Source: Actinomycetes bacterium
Lineage (GTDB): Bacteria > Actinomycetota > Acidimicrobiia > Acidimicrobiales > Ilumatobacteraceae
NCBI GenBank assembly: GCA_025356335.1
Contig: JANXUF010000033.1
Coordinates: 62,001-126,000, forward strand
Direction: 5' to 3'
Length of the DNA stretch: 64,000 nt
This document shows, piece by piece, positions 25,809-27,084 of the stretch. The notes below the pieces were generated by a model, which was given only the letters and a program-made list of their open reading frames with translations, was not told the origin of the DNA and made no database searches. Both the position numbers and the translations under genes were made by a program. The first letter of the stretch is position 1; every line of letters starts with the position of its first letter.

Positions 25809-25832
25809 CGCCTCCCCGTCCTCGCTACCCCC

Positions 25833-25865
25833 GCCTCCCCAGCCCAGCCTCCCCAGCCCAGCCTC
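25833..25865. repeat. 14-bp tandem repeat (about 2.4 copies)
   Basis: GCCTCCCCAGCCCA GCCTCCCCAGCCCA GCCTC. Confidence 0.9.
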
Positions 25866-25875
25866 TGACACCCCC

Positions 25876-25949
25876 GATCGAGTATTTCGCTGACACCGGG
25901 AGCCAAACGAGTATTTCCGGTGCACCGTGGGGCGTCTTGCTACTCGATG
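25876..25949 (+). repeat. 74-bp inverted repeat, left copy
   Basis: gATCGAGTAtttcgctgac...CGAGTATTTCCG...TACTCGATg. Confidence 0.93.
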
Positions 25950-25957
25950 GGAAGGCT

Positions 25958-26977
25958 TCAGGCCGATTGGCGAACATCGATCGACGCCAGCCTCGCCAGA
26001 TAGACCGACTCGAGTTCGTCGGCAAGCGTCTCGACGTCGAGCATGTCGAGTTCTGTCACGCGATCGACCTGCCATCCGATGACGTGGCACTGTCGATCTC
26101 GGCGTTTGTCCTTCGTCGTTCCCTGGAGCAGCAGGTGATCCGGATGGACGTCGATCTCGATCGCCCATCGAAGCTCCGGTATCGACAGATCGATGCGAAT
26201 CGGCGGATGGTCCGGCAGATCGAGTAGGCGAACCTGACGAACGATCGGTGTGCCCTTGCGTTTCATGGCCATCTCGAGGACGACCTCGGGATGGGATTCG
26301 AGCGCCGGAGCGTTGCCACGTTCGATCAGCAGACGGGCAAATCGCAGGGAACCCGTTCGCCGCGAATGAGCGAGTCGCCTGGCGTAGTACACGAGCGAGA
26401 AGAACGTGCAACGCCGCTTTTGAATCGACTGCTCGATGACCGAAAGGAGGTCGTCTGTGGACAGTGCTGCTGAGAGGTCGAGTAGCAATCGTTGGGGACT
26501 GGCAACAGTGATGCCGTCGCTGCGTTTCGTGACGTCTGCCGGCGTGACCGCAGTCGACTGATGGAAAATGGTGTCGCCGCTATATTCGATATGCAACCCG
26601 TGGGGCACGGTGAAATGGATCTGTTCGCTGGCCGGCATGCGGCGATATCCCTCCAATCTCCCTGCCGTCGGGCCGGACACGAAGCCAGTCGGGTGGGCGA
26701 GACAGAGCGCGACACAGCGCGACTCCAGGGTGATCGGCGCTGATGTGATCCGATATACGCGCTTGAAGAGCAGGTCGAGGATCTGTTCCTCGACCAGCCG
26801 TCGTCGTGCTCGCCGGCCGACACCCGCGTCGGTGAGCATCTGGCCGGTTGCAACTCCGTGATGTTGACGAAAGAGCTTCGTCGCTGCTGGGGTGAGAGAT
26901 GACACGTGGGAACCTCCGCATCGAAGTGATGGCGAGGGGGAAGTCGAGTCACGTGCGACTCTATTGCCGGGCACCAC
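25958..26977 (-). CDS. DUF559 (Vsr/PD-(D/E)XK-like) protein with AbiEi-like N-terminal region
   Basis: C-term IRIDLSIPELRWAIEIDVHPDHLLLQGTTKDKRRDRQCHVIGWQVDRVT fits DUF559; N-term LFRQHHGVATGQMLTDAGVGRRARRRLVEEQILDLLFKRVYRI fits an AbiEi-type winged helix. Alternative start GTG 26905. Confidence 0.8.
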   Translation of the reverse strand: MVPGNRVARDSTSPSPSLRCGGSHVSSLTPAATKLFRQHHGVATGQMLTDAGVGRRARRRLVEEQILDLLFKRVYRITSAPITLESRCVALCLAHPTGFVSGPTAGRLEGYRRMPASEQIHFTVPHGLHIEYSGDTIFHQSTAVTPADVTKRSDGITVASPQRLLLDLSAALSTDDLLSVIEQSIQKRRCTFFSLVYYARRLAHSRRTGSLRFARLLIERGNAPALESHPEVVLEMAMKRKGTPIVRQVRLLDLPDHPPIRIDLSIPELRWAIEIDVHPDHLLLQGTTKDKRRDRQCHVIGWQVDRVTELDMLDVETLADELESVYLARLASIDVRQSA

Positions 26978-26987
26978 CGCATTGCTC

Positions 26988-27061
26988 GATCGAGTAGGAA
27001 CACGCCCTACGGCGCGACGGAAATACTCGATTGATGGTCGACGTCAGCGAACTACTCGATT
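26988..27061 (-). repeat. 74-bp inverted repeat, right copy
   Basis: Reverse complement reads aATCGAGTAgttcgctgac...CGAGTATTTCCG...TACTCGATc. Confidence 0.93.
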
Positions 27062-27084
27062 GGGGCGCCGCTGAGCGTGTTCGG

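Follow-up and report, generated by a model that had tools for sequence, protein, structure and literature searches.

A predicted nuclease gene lying between two inverted repeats raises the question of whether gene and repeats travel together as a single element or are bound to each other in some other way. Such a gene is found in the 64,000-nucleotide stretch of actinobacterial DNA analyzed here, hereafter called the window.

Two copies of a dispersed element flank the nuclease gene

The inverted pair described in the initial annotation, 74 bp long with 57 matches in 74 ungapped positions, was reproduced exactly, and a repeat search of the window extended it to 77 nt (25872-25948 and 26989-27065, 79%). 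Comparison of the left flank of the gene with its right flank gave a score of 45, against no more than 16 in 100 shuffles, and for none of the 38 other window genes did the same score exceed 18. The original observation is therefore correct, and it is also understated: the repeats are not ends private to this locus but each one copy of a dispersed 72-bp palindromic element made of two modules, as judged by repeat search and copy alignment. The left copy spans 25877..25948 (minus strand in the canonical orientation) and the right copy, inverted relative to the left, spans 26989..27060 (plus strand). Between the stop codon of the upstream gene and the left palindrome, the gap (25809-25866) is occupied by short direct repeats rich in C.

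The reading frame of the nuclease gene, on the minus strand, is open to position 26977 (339 aa), where the start codon, initially given as ATG, is actually GTG. Because the homologues align only from about residue 19-25, the likely start is GTG 26905, which gives a gene of 315 aa at 25958..26905; with this start, about 83 bp separate the gene from the right repeat, and not the 10 bp first reported. The neighboring genes, read from the open reading frames and not by profile search, are ribF/truB and a gene for a substrate-binding protein, and none of these was found beside any of the fetched homologues.

The genome of the window (G000) is a 156-contig draft assembly. With 40 of 110 candidates scored, it contains at least 25 further copies of the element at E<=1e-3, most of them solo, which contradicts the possibility that the repeats occur only at this locus. 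Twenty-two copies, including the two in the window, were examined: 15 have a length of 71-72 bp and comprise two modules, ATCGAGTAGGAAC...GGAAATACTCG and GTCACGGAAATACTCGAT; six others, of 43 bp, have a single module, and one has 62 bp. All end precisely in unrelated flanks (28 and 33% identity), so that spread must have happened. No target duplication was detected at these 22 copies for k 2-9, in agreement with what had been noted for the window locus. Across 61 genomes from the same family and order, copies of the window element are confined to G000, apart from one 29-nt match (E 5e-4) elsewhere. The tetranucleotide GTAG is present in this family (ATCGAGTAGG) and, by eye, absent from several others. 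Several families have a strong propensity to form a DNA hairpin, but that of the two window copies is no more than moderate (z -1.2 and -3.0), and hairpin formation is therefore not needed for the argument developed below.

Domain organization of the protein

Residues 14-180 of the window protein (26366..26866, minus strand), a winged helix and the domain that follows it, match AbiEi profiles (PADLOC, 4e-14). An AlphaFold2 model of the protein (pLDDT 89, pTM 0.85) was compared with known structures using Foldseek. Its N-terminus matches AbiEi of Streptococcus agalactiae (6y8q) and Rv2827c (1zel), while its C-terminal domain, about residues 200-300 (26006..26308, minus strand), matches more weakly the catalytic domain of I-Bth0305I (3r3p) and Vsr (1vsr), with E values of 0.02-0.1, probabilities of 0.99-1.0 and, for 3r3p, a TM score of 0.80 by target length. 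In both family alignments four residues never vary, E207, D239, H257 and D266; they would constitute an EDxHD set, the assignment of residues to the motif being my own reading. The label DUF559/Vsr first given to the protein holds at the level of the family, by profiles and by fold, where Pfam hits of the C-terminal domain to MTES_1575 were obtained for 12 members of 14 and for 4 of 9, and to DUF559 for 4 of 9; the window protein itself falls below the Pfam gathering cut-offs. NCBIfam had no family name for this protein, and a PDB sequence search with it returned nothing useful. The domain make-up shown by profiles and fold is that of a predicted AbiEi-type DNA-binding region joined to an EDxHD domain of the Vsr-like, homing-endonuclease kind. 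AbiEi proteins and Rv2827c bind inverted repeats (PMC7319586), and the N-terminal region is the proposed reader of the palindromes.

These same domains bring defense to mind. The AbiEi profiles stem from an anti-phage library and Vsr-like REases are known in conflict proteins (PMC3710099), as would suit a nuclease that attacks DNA and palindromes that act as chromosomal decoys or self marks and not as spreading repeats. I consider this reading improbable: the window gene is surrounded by ribF/truB and the substrate-binding gene, no AbiEii toxin gene could be recognized among the adjoining open reading frames, and the dozens of dispersed copies and the conserved, vertically inherited loci described below are atypical of defense genes.

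Flanking repeats are a trait of the nuclease family

Of nine paralogues examined in G000, eight carry matching repeats on both sides, each pair of a different sequence, and the remaining one is marginal. When homologues from G000 and its relatives were taken together, 67 of 96 were bracketed in this way: 70% reached a score of 22, against 2.7% of mispaired flanks, that is, flanks taken from different genes, and at a score of 25 the proportions were 65% and 0.3%. None of 38 control genes from the window was bracketed; among 51 neighbor genes five were, some of which perhaps share the element with the nuclease gene. Homologues were also sought by a GTDB scan with a three-sequence alignment as the query. 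The named homologues belong mostly to Ilumatobacteraceae, Acidimicrobiaceae and other Actinomycetota; 11 of the 12 loci with sufficient flank in named genomes scored at least 23, including that of the isolate Ilumatobacter nonamiensis, and the twelfth (L138, the same locus as L048 of the set of 96) has a tandem repeat upstream only.

A survey of the phylum found homologues in 60 of 195 actinobacterial genera, and 14 of 42 survey loci, mainly from more distant actinobacteria, were bracketed, against 0.4% of the mispaired control. The bracket is strongest in the order to which the window belongs and weaker outside; about 30% of the close homologues and two thirds of the distant ones lack it by the flank test. 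In many brackets the two repeats are direct, not inverted. The association of nuclease and repeats, and the privacy of each repeat to its gene, are properties of a large and apparently undescribed nuclease family, most members of which lie between copies of their own palindrome, contrary to the suggestion that other homologues might never be so flanked.

Two further features were observed around these genes. The heptamers TGTGACA/TGTCACA occur within 150 nt upstream of 23 of 146 family genes, against 1.0 expected from shuffles (for example L109-L115, L052, L069 and L070), usually at a distance of 25-35 nt from the aligned start; they may represent a promoter box of the -35 type in leaderless messages, or else an operator common to these genes. 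At L129, L130 and L131, the hairpin is adjoined by direct arrays of a unit of about 20 nt (e.g. CCGAGTCCCACACCACCAT) that repeats one arm of the palindrome, and at other sites the number of repeat units differs between species.

Dispersal and placement of the palindromes

To each nuclease gene belongs a palindrome of its own, copies of which usually lie elsewhere in the same genome as well, and a genome often contains several such pairs. With 40 of 183 candidates scored, five further families in G000 have at least 8, 8, 8, 4 and 1 additional copies, and the other three of the eight were seen solely next to their gene. Palindromes were taken from five nuclease genes in each of G010 and G017, and yielded 57 matches in the former and 53 in the latter. 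One family of G017 often takes the form of inverted doublets with a spacing of about 60 bp, which is the layout of a REPIN; the doublets lie at C54:37672/37734, C28:36248/36311, C28:26153/26217, C41:138802/138863, C64:41991/42054 and C131:2567/2630.

The orientation of the genes around solo copies was deduced from a simple codon-usage call, independently of any annotation. Solo copies were found between convergent genes in 22 cases, tandem genes in 32 and divergent genes in only three (p=0.00016 for convergent versus divergent). They are therefore not a set of promoter operators.

Palindromes change in concert with the nuclease

Across the family, similarity between proteins correlates with similarity between their palindromes (Mantel r 0.18, the best of 2000 permutations being 0.117). 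This covariation was examined within one genus (g11) by searching the palindromes of seven nuclease types jointly in nine species. Among the matches listed (E up to 4e-8), all but one correspond to the nuclease type of the genome in which they lie, and the sole exception, G102:C95, matches its own type too; likewise, all 59 sites that were fetched score best against their own type.

Together with the bracket data, these results bear on the idea that the repeats are ordinary intergenic repeats or terminators mobilized by something else, the nuclease lying among them by chance. Their REP-like placement beside gene ends agrees with it. However, each nuclease has its own palindrome, mispaired flanks fail to match, and the palindrome variants track the nuclease; moreover, a RAYT that might act as a hidden mobilizer was sought as Y1_Tnp (PF01797) and none was found in 12 genomes, the control working. 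A chance neighborhood is thus hardly credible.

Several of the g11 nucleases are orthologues located at one syntenic locus. They share 44-68% amino acid identity, compared with 72-81% for the neighboring genes. Ten intergenic positions are common to species of different nuclease type, in some cases by alignment of a single flank, and each of them holds the resident type. For instance, L326 and L346 lie in one 3-kb syntenic stretch, which contains GAGTGGGTACTCGC...GCGAGTACCCACTC in one species and GAGTCGGGACTCGC...GCGAGTCCCGACTC in the other. Site L360 of G135 appears to be an intermediate. Since the common positions are filled with host-matched types, the positions persist while the sequences are rewritten together.

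The simplest account of this concerted change would be gene conversion seeded by the cut of the resident nuclease. Selection on binding sites is the main alternative and could also drive it. A reading as operators and regulon makes the protein a regulator of the AbiEi kind that would control its own gene through the flanking palindromes, while the copies elsewhere would be regulatory targets that co-evolve with it through binding selection, the nuclease domain having another role. Such a regulon has a precedent in AbiEi and Rv2827c, which autoregulate through inverted repeats in their promoters (PMC7319586), and it agrees both with the presence of an element upstream of most family genes and with the tracking of the protein by the palindromes. 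It is nevertheless unlikely, since elements are located downstream of the gene too, solo copies shun divergent promoter regions, the nuclease residues are invariant, and the rewriting seen at many sites, which is symmetrical, runs over the full length and extends to loops and module number, exceeds what binding sites need.

Gene and palindromes keep their positions

The proposal that gene and ends form a mobile unit does not agree with the chromosomal positions of either. The nuclease orthologues hold one locus across species and genera, and the positions of the repeats are also conserved between species. In sister species of 90-93% identity, the palindrome is present in both at most sites for which both flanks were found, and no clean empty site or recent insertion was seen between them. 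The number of modules changes at L229, L230 and L233, the absence at L214 falls inside an indel of about 290 bp, and the site of L210 is occupied by another gene in the sister species. Apparent absences at L202, L205, L223 and L224 were discarded, the sister assemblies (G068, G090) having contig ends there; since contigs end at or beside palindromes, draft assemblies probably under-count them.

An IS-like unit, in which gene and inverted ends transpose together and solo copies are MITE-type derivatives, would explain the precise ends, the dispersed short derivatives and the inverted flanks at the window locus. It is largely contradicted, and in my view very improbable, because target duplication is absent, many brackets are direct, there is a single nuclease gene per palindrome type, and orthologues as well as solo copies stay where they are. 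Nor did any clean empty site come to light that would support transposition of the whole unit.

A model for palindrome maintenance

The reading that I favor, and regard as probable, is that of a nuclease/palindrome system that resembles a REPtron, is built on an unrelated enzyme and is kept uniform by break-induced copying, the binding, the cutting and the copying being the conjectural part. The AbiEi-type winged-helix region would recognize the arms of the palindromes that belong to its gene, and the EDxHD nuclease domain would cut at or next to them. Repair of the break by copying from another palindrome of the same cell would keep the family uniform; if the specificity of the nuclease drifted, copying repair would rewrite the whole family, and rare ectopic repair would generate new copies. 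The nuclease gene itself is inherited vertically at a fixed locus, evolves fast and is held between copies of its own palindrome. The system may also be of benefit to its host. A RAYT-like or homing-like role had been suggested for the nuclease at the outset, and this suggestion gains support from the dispersed repeats, the flanked homologues, the palindromes that track the nuclease and the homing-endonuclease-like C-terminal domain.

A bolder version of this model is quite possible, though I would stop short of calling it probable. AbiEi-EDxHD nucleases may be a new class of genome-resident enzymes, selfish or domesticated, that home palindromes in place: off-type palindromes would be cut and converted to the current variant, so that dozens of fixed sites would evolve with one enzyme, without HUH chemistry, in many actinobacterial genera.

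Comparison with known systems

The protein shares its N-terminal region, by profile and by fold, with the AbiEi antitoxins of type IV AbiE toxin-antitoxin systems and with Rv2827c. The AbiEi side is known to bind inverted repeats, and is the predicted reader here. Unlike these antitoxins, the protein carries a C-terminal nuclease, its repeats lie on both sides of the gene and are dispersed, and no gene for an AbiEii nucleotidyltransferase toxin was recognized beside the window gene. The family offers many independent protein/target pairs from which the reading of DNA by an AbiEi-type domain could be learned.

At family level, the C-terminal domain matches DUF559 and REase MTES_1575, the latter described as a Vsr-type REase within a HEPN conflict protein (PMC3710099). 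In a literature search that left aside preprints and most subscription papers, no published link of DUF559/MTES_1575 to palindromic repeats was found, nor any report of the nuclease/palindrome association. The present data suggest a possible role for these common yet unexplained proteins.

With the EDxHD homing endonuclease I-Bth0305I, which dimerizes on a target of nearly 60 bp (PMC3943268), the protein shares the fold of the catalytic domain and the invariant E, D, H and D. By contrast, the nuclease gene lies outside any intron or intein, its DNA-binding part is AbiEi-like, and the unit proposed to be copied is a dispersed family of palindromes, not the nuclease's own reading frame.

The closest resemblance in genomic organization is to REPtrons (REP/BIME/REPIN with RAYT/TnpA-REP). 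There too a single nuclease gene lies between its own palindromes, which are dispersed, extragenic and sometimes arranged as inverted doublets, and it occupies a fixed locus, evolves faster than its neighbors and co-evolves with the palindromes. REPs typically number hundreds of copies, whereas copy numbers here are in the tens. Further differences are that the enzyme consists of an AbiEi region and a Vsr-like EDxHD domain in place of an HUH tyrosine transposase, that brackets are frequently direct and not solely inverted, and that inspection by eye revealed no tetranucleotide foot shared by all families, GTAG being a feature of the window family. The system thus works like a REPtron and yet is none, because the defining HUH enzyme is absent. 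For RAYTs, cognate flanking palindromes, a fixed locus, a fast gene, co-evolution and a correlation with palindrome abundance have been described (PMC2817692; for REPtrons, PMC8266576). RAYT/REP is the palindrome-spreading partnership of the literature cited here, and an unrelated family with the same genomic logic would mean that such partnerships have had more than one origin. Naturally matched and mismatched pairs make the spread and uniformity of palindromes in bacteria testable, and the AbiEi-EDxHD family appears to be a second means, independent of the first, by which bacteria keep and propagate repetitive DNA.
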